64,000 bases of DNA, taken from positions 2,604,001-2,668,000 of the forward strand of contig NZ_LFBU01000001.1 of assembly GCF_001045555.1 (NCBI RefSeq). The letters run 5' to 3'. Every line of letters begins with the position of its first letter. Within the stretch, counting starts at the first letter, position 1. The notes below the pieces were generated by a model that saw nothing but the letters and a program-made list of their open reading frames with translations, ran no database searches and was not told where the DNA came from. This document shows positions 5,892 to 42,371 of the stretch, piece by piece. Origin of the DNA: Marinobacter subterrani (lineage in GTDB: Bacteria; Pseudomonadota; Gammaproteobacteria; Pseudomonadales; Oleiphilaceae). The position numbers and the translations under genes are program-made.

Positions 5892-7190
5892 ATGAAACCA
5901 GCACCCACTTTATCGACCGCGTTCCTGCACCCGGCCGGGCAGTCCCTGCCGGAGCCGCTGACTGCCCTGCGCAAGCAGCGCGGGACGGCTCTGGTGGATA
6001 TGCCGCTGCCGACGCGGAAAACCGAAAACTGGAAGTACTCCAGCAAGTATCTCAAGCTCACCGACGAGATGGCGATCTCCCTGCCGGCCGAAGGTAAAAC
6101 CGGCAGCAGCCTGGCGGTGCCCGGCTACAAGGTGGCGTTCCTGAACGGCGTGATGATGCCCGAGGCCAGCGAATACCCGGACCTGGACGGCATCCAGATC
6201 CAGAGCTTTGGCGATCTGAGCGACGACGAGGCCACCGAACTGGCCGGCCGGCTCGACAGCACGCTCGACCGTTATTCCGACAAGCGGGCGGTGCAGATGG
6301 CACGCCTCAATTCCGCCCGGTTTGAAGATGGCCTGCTGATTCGTCTCAGACCCGGTGCGGTGCTGGAGCAGCCCCTGTTCATCATTCATGAGACCAGCGC
6401 TGACGCCAGCGGCTCCGCCTACCCACGTATCTATGTGGATGCCGGCGCCAACAGCCAGATCACCCTGGTGGAAGAATACATTTCCAGCGGCACCGAGCCT
6501 GCGATGGTAAACACCGTCACCGAGCTCAATCTGGCAGAAGGCGCCAACGTCACCAGCATCCGCCTGAACATGGAAGGCGCGAATGTCCAGCATATTGGCT
6601 CTACCGGTGTCCTGCAGCAGCGCAGCTCCCGCTTCGAGAGCCACTGCGTCGGCTTTGGCGGCCCGTTGCGCCGGCATGATCTCCAGGTCAGCCTGGAAGG
6701 TGAAGGCGCCGAGTGCAGGCTCAACGGCGTGGTGGTAACCCAGGGCAAGCAGCACTACGACAACCACACCACCATCGAACACGTGGCGGGCCACTGCAAC
6801 AGCGAAGAGACCTATCGCAACATCGCGGCAGACCAGTCCCATGCGGTGTTCAACGGCCGGATTCATATCCACCGGGACGCCCAGAAGTCCAATGCGGATA
6901 TGAACAACAAGAACCTGTTGCTGTCCAATGGAGCAGAGATCGACACCAAGCCGGAACTGGAAATCTATGCCGACGATGTAAAGTGCGCCCACGGCGCCAC
7001 CATCGGCCAGCTTGACGAAACGTCCCTGTTCTACCTGGTGTCACGGGGTATCGGCCGGCGTGAAGCCAACGTGCTGCTTACCATGGCTTTTATCAATGAG
7101 CTGGTAGAGCAGATCCCGATTGAAGCGGTGCGGGAAACGGTCCAGGGCCGCCTGAACCACTTCTTCGATCAGACATTCCAGGAGGCGTAA
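5892..7190 (+). CDS. sufD: Fe-S assembly protein SufD
   Basis: A 432-residue SufD, the partner of SufB in the SufBC2D scaffold. It needs the N-terminal residues TRKTENWKYSS typical of the family and the C-terminal block YADDVKCAHGATIGQLDE. The His of that block corresponds to the residue at the SufB-SufD interface implicated in cluster formation. The central beta-helix is less conserved, as usual for SufD. It starts 15 bp after sufC and ends 6 bp before sufS, with GGAG-type sites in both gaps, so the genes are very likely co-transcribed. Confidence 0.96.
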   Translation: MKPAPTLSTAFLHPAGQSLPEPLTALRKQRGTALVDMPLPTRKTENWKYSSKYLKLTDEMAISLPAEGKTGSSLAVPGYKVAFLNGVMMPEASEYPDLDGIQIQSFGDLSDDEATELAGRLDSTLDRYSDKRAVQMARLNSARFEDGLLIRLRPGAVLEQPLFIIHETSADASGSAYPRIYVDAGANSQITLVEEYISSGTEPAMVNTVTELNLAEGANVTSIRLNMEGANVQHIGSTGVLQQRSSRFESHCVGFGGPLRRHDLQVSLEGEGAECRLNGVVVTQGKQHYDNHTTIEHVAGHCNSEETYRNIAADQSHAVFNGRIHIHRDAQKSNADMNNKNLLLSNGAEIDTKPELEIYADDVKCAHGATIGQLDETSLFYLVSRGIGRREANVLLTMAFINELVEQIPIEAVRETVQGRLNHFFDQTFQEA

Positions 7191-29485: not shown

Positions 29486-29561
29486 GCCCGGATAGCTCAG
29501 TTGGTAGAGCAGGGGATTGAAAATCCCCGTGTCGGTGGTTCGATTCCGCCTCCGGGCACCA
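29486..29561 (+). tRNA. tRNA-Phe (anticodon GAA), phage integration target
   Basis: A 76-nt cloverleaf: acceptor GCCCGGA pairing with TCCGGGC, D arm AGCTCAGTTGGTAGAGC-like, anticodon stem GGGGA/TCCCC with loop TTGAAAA (anticodon GAA), T arm GGTGG-TTCGATT-CCGCC, and encoded ACCA. From the anticodon stem onward (29514) the sequence is duplicated at 42290. The 3' half of this gene, and the terminator behind it, therefore come from the integrated element. Confidence 0.98.
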
Positions 29562-29569
29562 AGATTCAA
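29514..29569 (+). repeat. attL: 56-bp direct repeat inside tRNA-Phe
   Basis: Bases 29514-29569 are identical to 42290-42345. The repeat begins in the anticodon stem and runs past the CCA end. This is the class of tRNA site used by many tyrosine recombinases. The integrase gene lies about 0.5 kb inside this end. Confidence 0.95.
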
Positions 29570-29575
29570 CGACTT

Positions 29576-29594
29576 AGCCCGCTTCGTGTGGGCT
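29576..29594 (+). terminator. tRNA-Phe terminator, element-derived copy
   Basis: AGCCCGC, loop TTCGT, GTGGGCT, then TTGTTGTTT. It is a slightly diverged version of the hairpin at 42352-42371, so the element restored both the tRNA end and its terminator on integration. Confidence 0.8.
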
Positions 29595-30117: not shown

Positions 30118-31083
30118 TCACACTGGCGAAAATTTGACCACCGCATCAAAATGGCTTGGGCTGAGATGGGCATATCTCATCGTCAATTTAATATCAGAGT
30201 GGCCGAGGATTTTCTGGAGAGTGAGAATGTCTCCGCCCTTCATGATGAAGTGGCTGGCGAACGTGTGCCGGCATACGTGAGTAAGCTGGCCCTTGGGTAA
30301 GTCTATCCCGGCCCTTTCGATTGCTTTCCGGAATGCAGCGCTGCAGCTGACGAATGGCAATTCTTCTATTAGCTCGCCATAGAGCTGCTTCGAGATTGGG
30401 ACGCTCCTGGACTTGCCGGACTTTGTGTAGTTGTAGGTGACCCGGTGAGGCGTGAAGTTTGACCTGGTTACGCCTTCCGCTTCCGACCACCTGGCGCCAG
30501 TGGCCATTGCCAATCGGGTGACGTGGTAAAGGCTGGGGTTGGAGGATGCTTTGCACTCTTCCAGGAGGCGGGTAATTTGTTCCTGGGAGAGAAACGCCAG
30601 TTCCTGTTCATCCAGCTTGAACTTCCGAAGCTTTTTTAACGGGTTTTCGTATGCCCATTCGCCTTGCCGGATCAGCTCGTTAAAGACTGCGCTCAGGTAC
30701 GTATGTTCGTGATTCAAGGTGTTCTCCCCTACCCCATCCTTTTCCATTCTGAGACGGCGATAAGTGGCGAAATCCGATACCTTGAACGACGTTGCCCTTG
30801 GGTTGCGTAGCCGATCGGCCATCGCATCCAGTTTGCGCTTTCGCATTTCTCCATCTTTCAGAGTGTGGCCGTGGGCGTCGTACCACTGCTGAATGAGATC
30901 CTTCAGACGCCGGCGATCCTTAGAAGGATTCCAGACCTGGTCTTCGGACTTCCGAAGCAGCAGGTGTTGTTCATAGCGCTTGGCTTCGGCCTTGCTGTCA
31001 AAGCTTTTTCTAATGCGTTTGGATCCGCGCCCATCCTGGCGGATATCGACCTGCCATCGTCCCGACGGTAGCTTCCTGATCAT
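30118..31083 (-). CDS. int: tyrosine recombinase (phage integrase)
   Basis: A 321-residue integrase. The N-terminal arm-binding region is RKLPSGRWQVDIRQDGRGSKRIRKSF, followed by a SAM-like core-binding domain. The catalytic domain has the Arg in ATGARWSEAEG, the HxxR box in HVCRHTFASHF, and the tail HSDIKLTMRYAHLSP with the Tyr nucleophile. It presumably acts at the tRNA-Phe attL/attR. Its start overlaps the replication-initiator stop by 4 bp, so integrase is the last gene of the phage operon, as in Pf4 (PA0728). Confidence 0.95.
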   Translation of the reverse strand: MIRKLPSGRWQVDIRQDGRGSKRIRKSFDSKAEAKRYEQHLLLRKSEDQVWNPSKDRRRLKDLIQQWYDAHGHTLKDGEMRKRKLDAMADRLRNPRATSFKVSDFATYRRLRMEKDGVGENTLNHEHTYLSAVFNELIRQGEWAYENPLKKLRKFKLDEQELAFLSQEQITRLLEECKASSNPSLYHVTRLAMATGARWSEAEGVTRSNFTPHRVTYNYTKSGKSRSVPISKQLYGELIEELPFVSCSAAFRKAIERAGIDLPKGQLTHVCRHTFASHFIMKGGDILTLQKILGHSDIKLTMRYAHLSPSHFDAVVKFSPV

Positions 31084-32435: not shown

Positions 32436-32471
32436 GGCGCGTGGCGGTCGCTCCGCTCGCGCTCACGCGCC
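32436..32471. other. GC-rich hairpin over the 3' end of zot
   Basis: GGCGCGTG (32436-32443) pairs with CACGCGCC (32464-32471) around a 20-nt loop. A second stem GAGACGT/ACGTCTC lies at 32400-32422. Both fall in the 117-bp gap between zot and the replication gene, with the first reaching into the zot stop codon. They may slow transcription, or be a replication or packaging structure; the sequence alone does not decide. Confidence 0.5.
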
Positions 32472-33626
32472 GTCGCCCTCCTGCTCTGGCATCACGGTTT
32501 GCAGGTAGGAGGAGCGGGGTTGTTCCTCTTCCTGGATCCGCTGGGGCTCCCGGTAGCTGTAGTAGGTGACGAGCTTGCCCTGGATGACGCAGTAGGGTTC
32601 CCCGGTCTTGAGGAAGGTTGCGCAGTTCCTGGAATGGATTTTCCGGGTGCCGCGTTCGCCCCAGATCCAGTAGATGTCGTTGACCTGGCCGACGATCCGC
32701 CATTGATCGGACAGGGGAAGCCAGCCGGGTTCGATTTCGTGTTTGACCTGGTACGGCGCCCTGCCCTCCAGATTGGCTTTGACCGCCCGGGTTGCCCTTA
32801 GTGTTTGGGCGCTTCGGGTGGTGGTGATCGGTTGCGGGCTGGCGCCGGGTGTTGTTTGATGGCCGGACGGGGTTGTGGGGTCTGTGGGCTCTTCAGCGTT
32901 GAAGTAGCCGATGACCTGGTAGACGCCGAAGACCATGATGGCGATGGCCACGGGGATACCGACTTTGATGAGCGGGTGTTTAAGAACGTTGGCGCGGTCG
33001 TCGGCCTTTTCTTCCATGCCGGCGGCGAAGTCGGTTTTGTTGCGGGTGTGACTCTTGTAGTACTGGTAGATCTCGGGCTTGTAGGAGCCGTAGAGCTGGC
33101 GCATGGGTTTGCCGGGTTTCTGGCCGGTGGCGGCGCCCATAAAGACATCCACCCGGTATTTGTTCTTCTGGCCGATGGCGGTGAGTTTCACGGCTCGGTA
33201 GGTTTCTTCGACCAGGCCCCGGACGAAGGCGCAGAGCTGGGCCAGGTCCTGGGTGACGAGGACGATTTCGTTGGTGCGTCCATCCGGGCCGACGTTGTGG
33301 CGGTGTTCGGTGAAGAACTCTTTCTGGCATTGCGGGATGTTGGTGGCTTTCATGCCGCTTTTCCAGAATCGCCAGGCTTCGTCGATGATCCAGATGACGC
33401 CGGCCGGGTGGCGTTCCAGGTCGAAGAAGGTGGGGTCGTCTTCCGCTTCTTTGTTGTCGAACAGGGTGACGTTGCCCTGGGGATAGTCGTCGCTGAGTCG
33501 TCCGAGCTTGAGCGGGATGTTGGTGATGATGTGTCTGCCGGCTTCCAGGGACGGGATGACGACGTTTTCGACGACGCCGTAGCTCTTTCCCGATCCTGGC
33601 AGGCCTGAGTATCCAACGATGGACAT
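32463..33626 (-). CDS. zot: Zot/pI-type phage assembly ATPase
   Basis: A 387-residue inner-membrane assembly protein of filamentous phages. Walker A is GLPGSGKS (residues 8-15) and Walker B GVIWIIDEA (~76-84). A single membrane helix follows at ~220-242 (KVGIPVAIAIMVFGVYQVIGYF), then a periplasmic tail with two cysteines (RNCATFLKTGEPYCVI). It would drive virion extrusion together with a host secretin. The place between the pVI-like and replication genes equals PA0726 of Pf4. The name Zot refers to the family and does not imply a toxin here. Confidence 0.93.
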   Translation of the reverse strand: MSIVGYSGLPGSGKSYGVVENVVIPSLEAGRHIITNIPLKLGRLSDDYPQGNVTLFDNKEAEDDPTFFDLERHPAGVIWIIDEAWRFWKSGMKATNIPQCQKEFFTEHRHNVGPDGRTNEIVLVTQDLAQLCAFVRGLVEETYRAVKLTAIGQKNKYRVDVFMGAATGQKPGKPMRQLYGSYKPEIYQYYKSHTRNKTDFAAGMEEKADDRANVLKHPLIKVGIPVAIAIMVFGVYQVIGYFNAEEPTDPTTPSGHQTTPGASPQPITTTRSAQTLRATRAVKANLEGRAPYQVKHEIEPGWLPLSDQWRIVGQVNDIYWIWGERGTRKIHSRNCATFLKTGEPYCVIQGKLVTYYSYREPQRIQEEEQPRSSYLQTVMPEQEGDGA

Positions 33627-37269: not shown

Positions 37270-37895
37270 GCGGCGGCCCCTTCTGACTTTACCGTCCACA
37301 CCCAGTTCCAGGCAGTGGCACCGTGGTAGGAGTCGCCGCCAATCGCGAGGTATTGGTTACCGCGACGGTCTACGGCTATACAGCACGGCTCCCATTCTTC
37401 AGGGCTTCGAAGTTCATTCATCCAGCCCGAGACCTGACCTTGAAACAGGACGACCACGCCTCGGCCCTGGAGCTGGGGGCGCTCGTCCAGGTACTTGCTT
37501 GCCAATTGGCGGTTCTGGGCGGCCAGTGCCGGGTCCACCGGAGACTGGGTGGCTTTGGATGCGTGTTCCGGGGCAGGTTTGATGGTCAGGCCCTGGAAGG
37601 GTTTAAAGGCTTGACCCAAGGCCCAGGCTTCGAAATCCACAACGGTGTGCTGGAGCGTGAAACGGGACAGGGCGTTTACCCAGTCCATGGTGTAGTTGTA
37701 GAGGCCGTCGTCCAGGCCGCTGAAGGCGGCAGCCATGCCTAACAGCTTGGTGATGCTGTCGCAGTACAGTTCCCATTGGCCGCTCTTGTAGAAGTCGAGA
37801 GCGCCTGTCACGACCACCCGGATTTCCTGGAACTTCTGCTCGCGAAGGTCCGGCGCGATCAGGCCGGGAAAGTGGTTGTGAAGATCCCAAGTCAT
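37266..37895 (-). CDS. hypothetical phage protein, 209 residues
   Basis: A 209-residue protein starting MTWDLHNHFPG. The first ~110 residues look helical (VVVTGALDFYKSGQWELYCDSITKLLGM); a Pro/Gln-rich linker follows, then a strand-rich C-terminal part (GRGVVVLFQGQVSGWMNEL ... CCIAVDRRGNQYLAIGGD). No family recognised. ATG 37895 overlaps the upstream gene by 4 bp; the frame is open to 38105 but that region codes for the excisionase-like protein in another frame. Confidence 0.65.
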   Translation of the reverse strand: MTWDLHNHFPGLIAPDLREQKFQEIRVVVTGALDFYKSGQWELYCDSITKLLGMAAAFSGLDDGLYNYTMDWVNALSRFTLQHTVVDFEAWALGQAFKPFQGLTIKPAPEHASKATQSPVDPALAAQNRQLASKYLDERPQLQGRGVVVLFQGQVSGWMNELRSPEEWEPCCIAVDRRGNQYLAIGGDSYHGATAWNWVWTVKSEGAAA

Positions 37896-38125
37896 TGCCA
37901 GTCCTCCTGGTCCAGGGCCTGCTGAGACAGGGCGGCAATGTTGACCATGCGCACCCGACCGATCTTGAGTGAAGGCAGATGTCCTTTTTCGATCTGGCCC
38001 CTGACCTGCCCTTCCGTTAAGCCCGTTAGCTGGGCGTCGCGGTCCTGGGTCATGACGGGGGTTGCGATCAGAATGATTTGCTTTTGCTCGTCCACTGTTT
38101 TGCACTCTGCTACACTGAAATCCAC
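37892..38125 (-). CDS. excisionase-like small DNA-binding protein
   Basis: Up to 77 residues. The C-terminal 50 (LTGLTEGQVRGQIEKGHLPSLKIGRVRMVNIAAL) has the winged-helix excisionase/MerR-like pattern: a helix-turn-helix, then a G-R-V-R-M-V wing binding DNA. First gene of the minus-strand phage operon and next to the repressor-like gene, where excisionase or Cro-like control proteins sit in Pf phages. The start is unsure: GTG 38125 is the outer limit, and internal starts have poor ribosome sites. Confidence 0.6.
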   Translation of the reverse strand: MDFSVAECKTVDEQKQIILIATPVMTQDRDAQLTGLTEGQVRGQIEKGHLPSLKIGRVRMVNIAALSQQALDQEDWQ

Positions 38126-38131
38126 TTATTC

Positions 38132-38188
38132 ACTCAGTAACTTCGACTAAGTACTGAGTACTTTTTACTTACTCTAGCAGAGTGAGTA
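38132..38188. promoter_or_regulatory. lysogeny-switch operators between phage operon and repressor
   Basis: Two dyads in the 86-bp divergent gap. The first is ACTCAGTA (38132-38139) with TACTGAGT (38152-38159). The second is a 23-bp near-perfect palindrome with arms TACTTACTCT and AGAGTGAGTA around AGC (38166-38188, one mismatch). Both share ACTC/GAGT half-sites. They are placed to control both the excisionase-first operon and the repressor gene. Confidence 0.65.
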
Positions 38189-38211
38189 CATTTTACTATT
38201 TTAAGTTAACT

Positions 38212-38478
38212 ATGATCAGAGAACGGATAATAGAAATCTTCGATGTACTCGACCTGACCTCCAAGCGAATGGAGGAGCTGACCGGGATCGACCGGTATAA
38301 ATGGGGAAACATTCGAGGGAAAAAACAGAAGGTGAACGAAGATTACCTGGAAGCTCTAAACCAGGTATTCCCGCAGTTTTCCTTCTGGATCATGACAGGA
38401 CAAACAATCCCGGAAGCCGGACAAATTAGTCCGGAGATGGAGAAAGCACGGAAAGAGAACAGCCTGAAAACAGGATAG
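38212..38478 (+). CDS. putative prophage repressor (Cro/CI-like)
   Basis: An 88-residue protein. It begins IRERIIEIFDVLDLTSKRMEELTGIDRYKWGNIRGKKQKVNEDYLEAL, which has the lambda-repressor-like HTH pattern in which the second helix reads TSKRMEELTGI and the recognition helix RYKWGNIRGK. It is the only plus-strand phage gene and faces the operon across palindromic operators, so it is the likely immunity repressor. ATG 38212 is used; an extension to 38182 would run through the operator. Confidence 0.7.
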   Translation: MIRERIIEIFDVLDLTSKRMEELTGIDRYKWGNIRGKKQKVNEDYLEALNQVFPQFSFWIMTGQTIPEAGQISPEMEKARKENSLKTG

Positions 38479-38820: not shown

Positions 38821-39810
38821 TCACTGAAACTTGATTTGATACTTATAAAAAATCTTTTCAAACTCCAAGAACCATTCTGTACGAACAATATCGCCGAGAC
38901 AACTGTCATCGTCAATCAAGTTCAACAAACGCTTTCTATCCAAAAGAACATTACCACTTACACCCCTAATATTTTTCCACTGGCCAGTAGAATCCCGATA
39001 GCAGATAGGAATGAACACAACATTAAGTGGATTCTGTGATAACGAGAAAAAAGGTCTAAAACTCTCTGGGTGAGCTTCGAATGTTTTAGACGGCCAATCA
39101 TCTTCTCTAGCAGCACACTGACCAAAGAATGCCATAGTGCTGGGGGCCTCGTCTGGAAAAGGATAAACCCCAACAACATCCAGCCCACCATCTCCTGCGT
39201 GGCTCTGATCTCTACAATACTCTTCGTGAACACTTAAAGCCTTTAGCAACCCACCAAGACAAATCAAAGCTTCTCTAGCATCTGTGCCAAAAACAGTTTT
39301 ACGATCATTTGAATTCGCGTCAAAATTAAATATCGACCACTCCCCAGGGAGCATGAAGCGACTAGCCAGCACACATATTTCGGTGAAACAAGCGGCCCAC
39401 TTCCCTCTGTGGGATCTTTGAAACGACCGCAACCTGGAACAAGCTAAAAGAAAGGTATAAGCCCGATGCGAATTTTCGAGTTGAGGCTTCAAGCGAATAC
39501 TCCTACCTGAAACCAGAAAGGGATAGGAGGCCCCGAAATGCGCTTCCCGGAACTCAAAATGAGTCCAGAGATCCTCAATTCGCCTCTGTTTATGAAGCTT
39601 TTTCTCCGCATCGTCTTCTAGAGAATCGAGTTCTTCCTCGTCCTTGATTTCTTCAGGATGAATAGCACTATCGCGAATCAAATCGTCTACATCTGCGGGC
39701 GTGTAACCAACGTAAGCGCCACCAGAAACCAAGAGGATCAACTCAACGACATCTGCTAGCAAATGAGGAGTACCGGGATGTAACTCTCCAAGCTCAAAAC
39801 GCATCGTCAT
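38821..39810 (-). CDS. nuclease-like protein of a methyltransferase-ParB-nuclease cargo
   Basis: A 329-residue protein with no name I can assign. The C-terminal half has GDGGLDVVGVYPF (Asp207, Asp211) followed by FFGQCAAREDDW (Gln231), and an upstream helix with Glu144 (FTEICVLASRF). This order, Glu ... D-GGLD ... GQxx, resembles Mrr-like PD-(D/E)xK restriction nucleases that use a Q-x-K third motif, but the lysine position is not kept. I recall this GQCA-x-x-x-x-W motif from uncharacterised proteins beside methyltransferases; that is memory, not a search. It overlaps the ParB-like gene by 17 bp and is AT-rich. Confidence 0.55.
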   Translation of the reverse strand: MTMRFELGELHPGTPHLLADVVELILLVSGGAYVGYTPADVDDLIRDSAIHPEEIKDEEELDSLEDDAEKKLHKQRRIEDLWTHFEFREAHFGASYPFLVSGRSIRLKPQLENSHRAYTFLLACSRLRSFQRSHRGKWAACFTEICVLASRFMLPGEWSIFNFDANSNDRKTVFGTDAREALICLGGLLKALSVHEEYCRDQSHAGDGGLDVVGVYPFPDEAPSTMAFFGQCAAREDDWPSKTFEAHPESFRPFFSLSQNPLNVVFIPICYRDSTGQWKNIRGVSGNVLLDRKRLLNLIDDDSCLGDIVRTEWFLEFEKIFYKYQIKFQ

Positions 39811-40951
39811 CCTCAGACGCTTGTCTTTGCTTATCTTTTAAGGTATTCCCAATTAACTTGATATTTTCTCGCATACTTCGAGCCAATTCCAAGAGCTCAT
39901 CCTCATATCTTACATGCGCGACAACAGAGGCAGCTTGAGATATAAGAGCTTCGGCTTCATACAAAGACTGTTTCAAGTCCTCAGTCACGCCCTCAGTTTG
40001 CCTGTGAGCGTATTCAAGGCTTGCGCCATCTATCAATATCTTCGTTGCTTTTTCGTTCTTTAGAACATGCGAAAGCTGCCTGATATTTCTTGACTCACCT
40101 AAAACACTCTTACCATTTTCCTTCTTCTCATATATCCACCTACAAAGCTGATATAAGTTACGAACATCTATAACACCTTGATTTATTATCGGATGGACTG
40201 GAAAAAAATCGCCGTTATCATCCTCTTCACAAATCCCAACATAACGACCAATATTACTGTCATTTATGGCCGTCATTAGTACGCCAAACTTTATAGATGA
40301 CTCACTTAAACCAGGAATTCCAAAATAGCCGTTTTCCTCAATGACTCTATACGCAGCCAATGCATCCAAGTTACGCTTTATATGATCGTAACGGGAACCG
40401 ATTTGCTTCGCCACAAACCTGTAACGATCTTCGGGAGAGTCAGCCTCACTGGAGAGAACAAACAATTCAAATATATACCTAGCTTTTGCAAGAGGCTCCC
40501 ACTCTTTAACACCAGTAATGTGCCTATAACCTAAATAAGGTATTACTGCCTCACGAGAGTCACGCACAATAACCGGGATGGTGCTAGGACGATGAATCGC
40601 ATTATCGTATATTTCACGTAGTCTTAAACCCGGATGCTCAATTATATCTATATCTTGAAGTATTTTAACTGCGGTCAATCGCCGATTACCCTCAACAACC
40701 ACGTATTTTTGAGTATCATCACCGCCTTCTTTTTCTGAGCCAGAAGGATGCGGAACAGCGATAACCGGCTCGCCGGCAAAGTAGCCGTTTTGAGCAATAG
40801 CGCTTACCAAGTCTTCAATACTTGTCTGGGACGCCATATAGCCCAAGATTTCCCGATCCGTTCTCTCTATAGACTCAGGTAGCCTCGGATTCCTCGGATC
40901 AAGCAAGAGGTCATTGATATCAACATATTGAATCTCATGATCTTGAGACAT
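39794..40951 (-). CDS. ParB/sulfiredoxin-fold protein, cargo gene
   Basis: A 385-residue protein. The N-terminal ~110 residues follow the ParB/Srx fold: VDINDLLLDPRNPRLP, a helix IEDLVSAIAQNGYF, EPVIAVP and VVVEGNRRLTAVKIL (EGNRR at 87-91, the nucleotide-binding box of the family). The rest is helical, with an HTH-like stretch (RFVAKQIGSRYDHIKRNLDALAAYRVI) and a C-terminal coiled segment. Chromosome-partition ParB is unlikely, as no ParA adjoins it. ParB-fold proteins of this type occur in restriction and defence loci as CTP/ATP-dependent or DNA-loading factors; its role here is inferred from its neighbours. Confidence 0.75.
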   Translation of the reverse strand: MSQDHEIQYVDINDLLLDPRNPRLPESIERTDREILGYMASQTSIEDLVSAIAQNGYFAGEPVIAVPHPSGSEKEGGDDTQKYVVVEGNRRLTAVKILQDIDIIEHPGLRLREIYDNAIHRPSTIPVIVRDSREAVIPYLGYRHITGVKEWEPLAKARYIFELFVLSSEADSPEDRYRFVAKQIGSRYDHIKRNLDALAAYRVIEENGYFGIPGLSESSIKFGVLMTAINDSNIGRYVGICEEDDNGDFFPVHPIINQGVIDVRNLYQLCRWIYEKKENGKSVLGESRNIRQLSHVLKNEKATKILIDGASLEYAHRQTEGVTEDLKQSLYEAEALISQAASVVAHVRYEDELLELARSMRENIKLIGNTLKDKQRQASEDDDAF

Positions 40952-40974
40952 AAGGAAACGATCCCACGAACGAA

Positions 40975-41913
40975 TTAATTAATTATATCAACTATTTTTC
41001 GACTGACAGACTCGAAGAGTTGAGGAGGAACAGCATTGCCCACGACTCTATACTTTTCCCGCAATGATGCCGTTTCAGGAAAAACCATTGACTTAGGAAA
41101 CCCCTGGAGCCTCGCCGCCTCTCTGAAAGAAAAGCGTCTTGCAGGCCGATCTTCGGACCAAACCCACTTATCAGTGTGAATTCGCGTAAGGCTCGGACTG
41201 ACAGGGTGCAGGGGCATATGACGAGGGTGACTGACTATAGTTTTGCTCGTTTCGCCCCAGTCTCTTCTTCTGTTTCTAGATAGGTAATACCAGTGAAAAG
41301 GCTCCGTCCAATACTCCCCTTCAGGCCAATCGGGTAAATCACCTATAGCTTCCCTTATCGTTACGTACCCACTCTGTTTCTTCGGACCGTGGGTCGCCTC
41401 GGGAAAAACGAAGGGGCAGCCAATGTCAGAGCGAAGGCCGACAATGAGAATTCTTTTTCGCTCCTGCGGAGTTCCGTAATCCGCCGAGTTCATTATTTCC
41501 CAAGACACCCGATAACCACAAAAGCGAAACTGTGTGATCTGGGCACGCAGAAGATGAGAAAAATCCGCTCTTTGCATTCCAGAAACGTTCTCGACAACAA
41601 AGGCTTTGGGCTTTATTTCTTTAAGTGCCCTTACGAATTGCCGGTAAAGGTAATTGACTTTACGATCAGCCTTTCTGGCGCCACCTTGGCTAAACCCTTG
41701 GCACGGATAACAACCAACTAAAAGATCAGCTTTCGGAAAGGATTCTATATCAGCGACATCATTTACCTGATAATCCGTTTCGGGAAGGTTTGCGAGGTAC
41801 ACGTCTCTCGCGTATGGCAGAACATCGTTCGCAAACTTTACTTCCACACCGGCCTGGTGAAGTCCAAAGTCTGAACCTCCACAACCAGTAAACAGTGAAA
41901 CCGCCGTAACCAT
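40975..41913 (-). CDS. DNA (cytosine-5-)-methyltransferase, cargo gene
   Basis: A 312-residue C5-cytosine methyltransferase, complete by motif: I SLFTGCGGSDFGL (SAM binding), IV GCYPCQGFSQGG (catalytic Cys), VI VVENVSGM (Glu), VIII QERKRILIVGL, IX with the FSFREAARLQGFP block, and X VVGNAVPPQLF. The target-recognition region between VIII and IX is ~100 residues, which predicts one short recognition site. First gene of a three-gene, AT-rich minus-strand unit at the right end of the prophage, with a 23-bp gap to the ParB-like gene. It probably protects host and phage double-stranded DNA from a partner nuclease. Confidence 0.92.
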   Translation of the reverse strand: MVTAVSLFTGCGGSDFGLHQAGVEVKFANDVLPYARDVYLANLPETDYQVNDVADIESFPKADLLVGCYPCQGFSQGGARKADRKVNYLYRQFVRALKEIKPKAFVVENVSGMQRADFSHLLRAQITQFRFCGYRVSWEIMNSADYGTPQERKRILIVGLRSDIGCPFVFPEATHGPKKQSGYVTIREAIGDLPDWPEGEYWTEPFHWYYLSRNRRRDWGETSKTIVSHPRHMPLHPVSPSLTRIHTDKWVWSEDRPARRFSFREAARLQGFPKSMVFPETASLREKYRVVGNAVPPQLFESVSRKIVDIIN

Positions 41914-42289
41914 GGATAAGCGCCCTAAACCTATGATATTTCGATATTATAGACTACAACCGCCAAAACGGCCAGTCCGAGACAGGTAGCGTAGGCGAGA
42001 CCAGCATACGGAATAAACGGCAAAACCGAAACTTGAATTCAAAAAAGCGAATATTGGGCAAAAACGTCAACACCAGTCCAGTGTTTCTGATTAAGCAGAC
42101 GACGTTAGAGGTTGACTCAGCATCAGCGGACTTTGAAGCGTTCTGGCACCGAATACCGTGGAACATTTAGATGCACCGGTGTCCTCAGAGTGTCCACGCC
42201 CTTGCGCTTTTAAGTGGTTATGTGTGGCACTGTTTTTCCGTAAGTACCTGATTGTGCAACCATGTGGAATTTTATGACGGTCTAGCATA
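41914..42289. other. gene-free right end of the prophage
   Basis: A 376-bp AT-rich stretch between the methyltransferase start and attR. A TATAAT-like -10 on the minus strand (about 41946-41951), ~33 bp before the methyltransferase start, may belong to its promoter; no clear -35 was seen. The open frames here have no protein-like character. Confidence 0.4.
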
Positions 42290-42345
42290 GGATTGAAAAT
42301 CCCCGTGTCGGTGGTTCGATTCCGCCTCCGGGCACCAAGATTCAA
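42290..42345 (+). repeat. attR: 56-bp direct repeat (3' part of tRNA-Phe)
   Basis: Identical to 29514-29569. It is the displaced 3' half of the original host tRNA-Phe, starting in the anticodon stem and lacking the 5' half, so it is not a working tRNA gene. Confidence 0.95.
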
Positions 42346-42351
42346 TAACTT

Positions 42352-42371
42352 AGCCCGCCCTTGTGCGGGCT
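42352..42371 (+). terminator. original host tRNA-Phe terminator, now orphaned
   Basis: Perfect 7-bp stem AGCCCGC/GCGGGCT with loop CCTTGT followed by TTTGTTGTTT. It matches the hairpin behind the restored tRNA at 29576 apart from loop and stem substitutions, and also separates the attR side from convergent dgkA. Confidence 0.8.

Follow-up and report, generated by a model that had tools for sequence, protein, structure and literature searches.

A linked methyltransferase, ParB-type protein and predicted nuclease as a candidate restriction-modification-like module in a filamentous prophage of Marinobacter subterrani

A 64,000-nucleotide stretch of the Marinobacter subterrani genome (RefSeq assembly GCF_001045555.1, contig NZ_LFBU01000001.1, positions 2,604,001 to 2,668,000; hereafter "the window") contains a filamentous prophage with three adjacent genes at one end, encoding a C5-cytosine DNA methyltransferase (MTase), a ParB-type protein ("ParB") and a third protein, here called X. 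We consider it probable (roughly 60%) that this trio is a restriction-modification (R-M)-like anti-phage defense module carried as prophage cargo. In the proposed scheme, the MTase would place 5-methylcytosine, probably in GGCC, on the DNA of the host cell. ParB would serve as both reader and switch: its helix-turn-helix (HTH) would bind DNA, nucleotide would set its state, and it would deliver or license X, a putative PD-(D/E)XK-type nuclease that would cut unmarked DNA. The proposal is supported by the linkage of the three genes, the fold predictions, a conserved putative active site in X, the location of related loci in a defense hotspot, an exchange of the ParB-X pair beside a constant MTase, and the association of ParB-X with three MTase classes.

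Linkage was assessed with two baits. A profile of X retrieved 24 viral contigs, in all of which a C5 MTase gene adjoins X; ParB lies directly upstream of X in 23, and the exception (L062) is cut at that end. The ParB bait gave 41 viral loci, a set that overlaps the first in contigs. X is present in 38 of the 39 that were newly fetched (L103 is cut) and a C5 MTase in 36, the other three (L097, L103 and L128) being cut by a contig end; the remaining two (L049 and L060) hold the complete trio. Among named phages, 11 records, not all of them independent because of duplicates, matched X, and the same 11 matched ParB. X was also found in 3 of 369 genomes of the class and 5 of 398 of the phylum, i.e. 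in seven distinct genomes, all with adjacent ParB and MTase genes (in G531 the MTase is encoded by a short frame of 223 amino acids). The co-occurrence of the three genes is thus far beyond chance, and the conserved adjacency that the preliminary description of this DNA had put forward as a check was borne out. That MTase, ParB and X constitute a functional unit is almost certain. Against a universal linkage stand two loci, L004 and L148, which have ParB-X and no MTase detectable by C5, D12 or N4 queries within about 5 kb of flank. The latter (MT835579.1, 10138-21163), a faecal phage scaffold, features two convergent ParB-X pairs, and none of the three queries detected an MTase in it.

The ParB profile was less selective than X: it matched 30 of the 369 class-sample genomes, only three of which have X. 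Most of the others gave partial N-terminal matches, as expected of other ParB-fold proteins. When X alone was searched across genome contigs, nine pattern matches and no relatives were obtained, and with its PHROG profile X was detected in none of 57 relatives, including 36 congeners. In pairwise comparisons over 28 loci, the identities of ParB and X were correlated at 0.95, those of ParB and MTase at 0.71, and those of X and MTase at 0.74; these values are descriptive only, because locus pairs are not independent.

All 24 X-anchored viral loci share the gene order ParB, X and a convergent MTase, whereas in the window the C5 MTase comes first and all genes are co-directional. The preliminary description had called a ParB-type factor between modifier and effector unusual; this holds for the window, whose order is unusual even within the family, but not as a feature of the family, in which ParB-X with a convergent MTase prevails. 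Other co-directional arrangements have the MTase upstream (L133, of the D12 class) or downstream (L122, L132 and L143). In L133 (G388:C5:169000-184000), the D12 MTase, ParB and X are located within an apparent type I restriction operon that also encodes HsdM, HsdS, a Schlafen/AlbA-type protein and an HsdR-like protein.

With up to 8 kb of flank considered, 21 of the 24 X-anchored viral loci matched at least one P2-type query among terminase, portal and gpA, two (L040 and L048) matched a P2-type tail gene only, and one (L042) matched none of the tested markers. The Zot, Rep and coat proteins of the window matched in none of the 24, and none is an inovirus by these markers. P2-like prophages carry the trio between the portal and replication (gpA) genes, a gap described as a defense hotspot (PMC9122126, PMC9519451) in which 169 systems have been counted (PMC9122126). 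The P2-like phage KL3 has a set comprising EcoRII-C endonuclease, Vsr and a methylase near its portal gene (PMC3091744). Filamentous prophages of Vibrionaceae also carry defense genes, with complete systems in 8.5% of variable loci (PMC11630473), and a filamentous vehicle for defense is therefore not new.

An exchange within the trio is documented by two P2-like prophages, one in E. coli W and the other in E. coli O145:H28 RM12581. They are 97.7% identical up to position 5943 of locus L150, a break that precedes the ParB start (6001 or 6133, depending on the annotation), and 95.7% identical from the MTase stop codon onward; blastn found no match across ParB-X between the two loci. In global alignments (of phage records matching the loci at 100%), the MTases are 98% identical, the ParB proteins 35% and the X proteins 27%; the 28-locus comparison gave lower figures for this pair (ParB 32%, X 22%). 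ParB and X have been exchanged jointly, as a cassette, beside a constant MTase. Because the flanks retain 96-98% identity, ParB-X is not a phage core function. The swap fits two alternative restriction halves that would obey one mark. By match length (at least 80% of the locus), one of the two versions occurs in 139 of the 5426 complete E. coli genomes: the O145/12474III-type in 36 and the Wphi-type in 103.

The AlphaFold model of X (predicted local distance difference test score, 95) most strongly resembles PD-(D/E)XK nucleases, and by fold comparison X is predicted, though not decisively, to be such an enzyme. In 20 diverse homologues, D207, D211, Q231 and W239 of its putative active site are invariant and C232 and K242 are conserved in at least 90%. 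The fold comparison thus supports, short of proof, the nuclease-like character proposed in the preliminary description. An exchange of position between K242 and the canonical Q-x-K lysine was considered and not used, as the idea depends on a single homologue (L008, which is identical with the L133 gene). The top structural neighbors of X are MspJI and AspBHI, with enzymes of many other specificities within the next 1-2 Z units; with full-length X as the query, the match spans only residues 269-440 of MspJI. Foldseek found no match to X among viral structure models at 0.001, and X has no PADLOC match.

By fold comparison, the middle protein possesses the N-domain and HTH of the ParB clamp family and resembles ParB, Noc and KorB, which upheld its earlier assignment as a ParB fold with an EGNRR box. 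A distant homologue (L122) carries EGNCR at this position. The window ParB has an acidic tail with a terminal Phe (DDDAF, at the gene end at 39794-39810), as do many close homologues (DDDF or DEDF); the tail is absent from distant members. The C-terminal tip of the single-stranded DNA-binding protein SSB resembles such a tail, and by analogy the ParB tail may be a peptide on which X or a host protein docks. The arginine of the EGNRR motif is required for nucleoside triphosphate binding in other ParB folds (PMC12704722). In L135 (G193:C1:1249000-1265000), a ParB of the family is split in two by a repeated open reading frame (ORF) resembling an insertion element, and no X was found nearby. Distant homologues in L134 (G388:C13) and L136 (G664:C12) are followed by proteins of ca. 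250-300 amino acids without an X match, which are perhaps further effector types.

Residues 4-307 of the window MTase align with M.HaeIII (1dct; E = 1.7e-44), and the alignment takes in the SRNR-x-R-x-W and HP-x-x-P elements of the target domain. All 29 aligned homologues, several of which are nearly identical to each other, retain SRxR and HPxSP; for two C5 partners outside this alignment, the motif is similar in L122 and not in L132. M.HaeIII methylates GGCC. Given the M.HaeIII-like target region in all 29 homologues, the predicted target in the window is GGCC or a site that includes it. By homology the protein is a site-specific DNA MTase, like that of a Type II R-M system, and its Cys71, in the PCQ motif, is presumably catalytic, as the corresponding Cys is in C5 MTases. 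Among Pfam families, considered up to E = 1, only C5 DNA_methylase was matched. The claim of an intact C5 MTase stands.

The nearest validated relative is PD-lambda-5, termed a compacted prophage version of an R-M plus abortive infection (Abi) system, which had an effect on plating or plaque size for nine of ten phages (PMC9519451). Its component A is homologous to the ParB half of the trio: PADLOC matched residues 7-159 of the window ParB (E = 4e-19), and hhalign aligned ParB profile positions 36-265 with component A over 211 columns at a probability of 99.9%. The two share a ParB-type N-terminal NTPase with an HTH region, a DNA MTase alongside, and a prophage setting. Component A, however, is a single protein with a C-terminal part of its own (its profiles have at least 428 positions, with one exception), whereas the window ParB has 385 residues and its effector, X, is separate. 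The window ParB matches component A profiles only through its own N-terminal part, with none of the matches listed extending past its residue 189; X matched no PD-lambda-5_A protein (below 1% probability in hhalign); and component B is a D12 class MTase, which the window MTase is not. By its defining parts, as judged from sequence, the trio is thus not PD-lambda-5. The word "ParB" does not occur in the main text of PMC9519451.

D12 MTases of the PD-Lambda-5_B type nevertheless adjoin ParB-X in three genomes, G388 (E = 7e-101), G579 (8e-121) and G652 (7e-86), and a fourth, G483, has an N6/N4-type MTase there (Pfam, 3e-17 over a short stretch; PADLOC MTase_II, 1e-28). In addition, 10 of the 13 listed class-sample ParB-fold proteins adjoin an ORF that begins like a D12 MTase (PLRYPGGK), as in PD-lambda-5; one pair of these (L014/L137) was confirmed by profile. 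Since ParB-X occurs with C5, D12 or N6/N4 MTases, the arrangement is modular: a ParB reader, an effector that is either a fused C-terminus or X, and an MTase from one of three classes. The trio fits a relative of PD-lambda-5 with another effector and, in the window, another MTase; it probably works like PD-lambda-5 on the recognition side. The trio itself has no description in the PADLOC 2023 library or in the literature searched, which comprised few subscription papers and no supplementary tables. To that extent the trio carries no established name, but its kin are known through the component A homology and the shared MTase type.

Other systems are more remote. A Type II R-M system with an M.HaeIII-like MTase has the same type of target region and an MTase linked to a putative nuclease, but here ParB and X take the place of a single restriction enzyme and vary beside a constant MTase. 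Pfam matched no Type I/III helicase-translocase, specificity or Mod subunit among the 16 region proteins, in agreement with the preliminary description. GmrSD, BrxU and SspE likewise tie a ParB/Srx-type NTPase module to a nuclease (PMC10952713); the trio differs in having its own MTase, no DUF262 match above threshold (GmrSD_N, 14 bits against a cut-off of 33.2) and no DUF1524 match. MspJI and AspBHI, the nearest structural matches of X, have no sequence match to it, and only the C-terminal region of MspJI is covered. Phage-borne fusions of a ParB CTPase and an MTase also pair the ParB fold with DNA methylation (PMC12704722), but are fused where the genes here are separate; the trio does not figure in that account as far as it was available. 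No library profile matched a longer part of the window ParB than PDC-M38A (residues 29-364, E = 5.7e-17), a PADLOC candidate of 715 positions. A ParB-X fusion, suggested by the similar length, was rejected, as the second half of PDC-M38A is not X. Matches to PDC-M38A (loci L064-L067 among them) turned up in 231 of the 398 genomes and in 8 of the 14 controls. Most came from this second half, and many lay close to the start of a contig, as would those of a housekeeping gene; a DnaN-like clamp is our guess.

Four alternatives to an R-M-like module were weighed. In an addiction or Abi module, ParB-X would attack the host chromosome when methylation drops or a phage is sensed, killing or arresting the cell rather than removing the invader, and the MTase would be the antidote. 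The Abi label of PD-lambda-5 (PMC9519451) and a small two-gene effector adjoining an MTase on a mobile element speak for this, but it is unlikely given that hhalign matched X to no PD-lambda-5_A protein and that ParB-X pairs with no detected MTase occur. Distinctly less probable is a modification-dependent (type IV-like) system in which X would cut modified phage DNA and the MTase would have another role: the match to MspJI is limited to the span given above, enzymes of many other specificities score nearly as well, and a resident 5-methylcytosine MTase would turn self into a target.

The two other alternatives assign the trio to the phage itself. The MTase might shield the phage from host enzymes, as phage MTases often do (PMC3091744), while ParB-X would aid phage maintenance or regulation, a role for which the ParB homology speaks. 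This anti-restriction or DNA-handling role is hardly probable, since ParB-X was swapped within conserved phage flanks and one copy resides in an apparent type I restriction operon. A partition system of an extrachromosomal prophage would agree with the ParB annotation and with the finding of a putative partition system at the hotspot in about one quarter of P2-like phages (PMC9122126). It was already disfavored and is highly improbable: Pfam matched no ParA-like protein among the 16 scanned, no ParA is annotated beside the named phage copies, and X accompanies ParB wherever the flank of a close homologue is uncut.

The coordinates of the trio and of its host element are collected in Table 1. 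All three genes are intact and read leftward, with a 23-bp gap between MTase and ParB and a 17-bp overlap between ParB and X, as the preliminary description had stated. Its AT-rich block was likewise evident: the G+C fraction of windows across the trio is 0.41-0.49, compared to 0.55-0.63 over 30.5-38 kb. An 80-nucleotide direct repeat (93%) that overlaps the 3' region of a tRNA-Phe bounds a 12.8-kb element; the repeat flanks the block, and the trio therefore lies inside the element. The integrase, Zot-like and coat-like (PHROG) matches uphold, at the level of homology, the identification of the element as a filamentous prophage with the trio as cargo at its attR end; a replication-initiation match remained below the Pfam cut-off (16 vs. 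29.6 bits). A small protein at 37892-38125, facing the divergent regulator beside the cargo, matches a Cox-like excisionase/repressor (phrog_575, E = 3e-7), and its top match, phrog_1864, has no function assigned in PHROG. Promoter-like sites numbered 8, compared to 5.6 (standard deviation 2.2) in shuffled sequences, and terminator-like sites 2, compared to 4.1; no such site was therefore used. A ParB match of 94% comes from a record named Marinobacter vinifirmus.

Table 1. Positions of the trio and of features of the host element in the window.
Feature	Position	Strand	Basis
Protein X, 329 aa (phrog_3984, of unknown function); predicted to be a PD-(D/E)XK-type nuclease	38821..39810	-	
Putative active-site stretch of X: D207, D211, Q231, C232, W239, K242	39085..39192	-	
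ParB-type protein of 385 aa with NTPase-type ParB fold, HTH region and helical C-terminus	39794..40951	-	
EGNRR nucleotide-pocket motif of ParB, residues 87-91	40679..40693	-	invariant in 26 aligned sequences
C5-cytosine DNA MTase (312 aa), M.HaeIII-like	40975..41913	-	Pfam DNA_methylase 7e-64; M.HaeIII 1dct
MTase target recognition region, ca. residues 196-246 (SRNRRRDW...RHMPLHPVSP)	41176..41328	-	M.HaeIII alignment
Cys71 of the PCQ motif in the MTase	41701..41703	-	sequence
attL: tRNA-Phe 3' part and flank	29503..29582	.	direct repeat D1, tRNA
Prophage tyrosine integrase	30118..31083	-	Pfam Int_N and Phage_integrase
Zot-like assembly protein of filamentous phage	32463..33626	-	Pfam Zot 1.9e-26, phrog_197
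Phage regulator adjoining the cargo, opposite strand	38182..38478	+	phrog_147 transcriptional regulator, E 4e-21
attR	42279..42358	.	direct repeat D1, 93%

Beyond the R-M-like module itself, we tentatively entertain a broader reading, which we hold to be possible but short of an even prospect: that these loci represent a class of restriction system in which a ParB-type, nucleotide-gated clamp replaces the helicase or specificity machinery and is combined with an interchangeable nuclease and a plug-in MTase. The clamp would load at unmodified target sites, slide or accumulate, and pass the DNA to the nuclease, while an MTase of the C5, D12 or N6/N4 type would define self; PD-lambda-5 would be a member with a fused effector. 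There is a real chance that a new restriction mechanism finds its clearest example in the trio. The E. coli prophages, with the same MTase and different ParB-X pairs, provide a natural experiment on the way in which the mark is read by the restriction half, and E. coli W is among the strains designated as safe for laboratory work (PMC3032704). If the broader reading is true, the trio would share a common frame with PD-lambda-5, for whose mechanism no explanation was found in the literature searched, and the ParB clamp, known mainly from segregation and gene regulation, would be tied to the discrimination of self from non-self.

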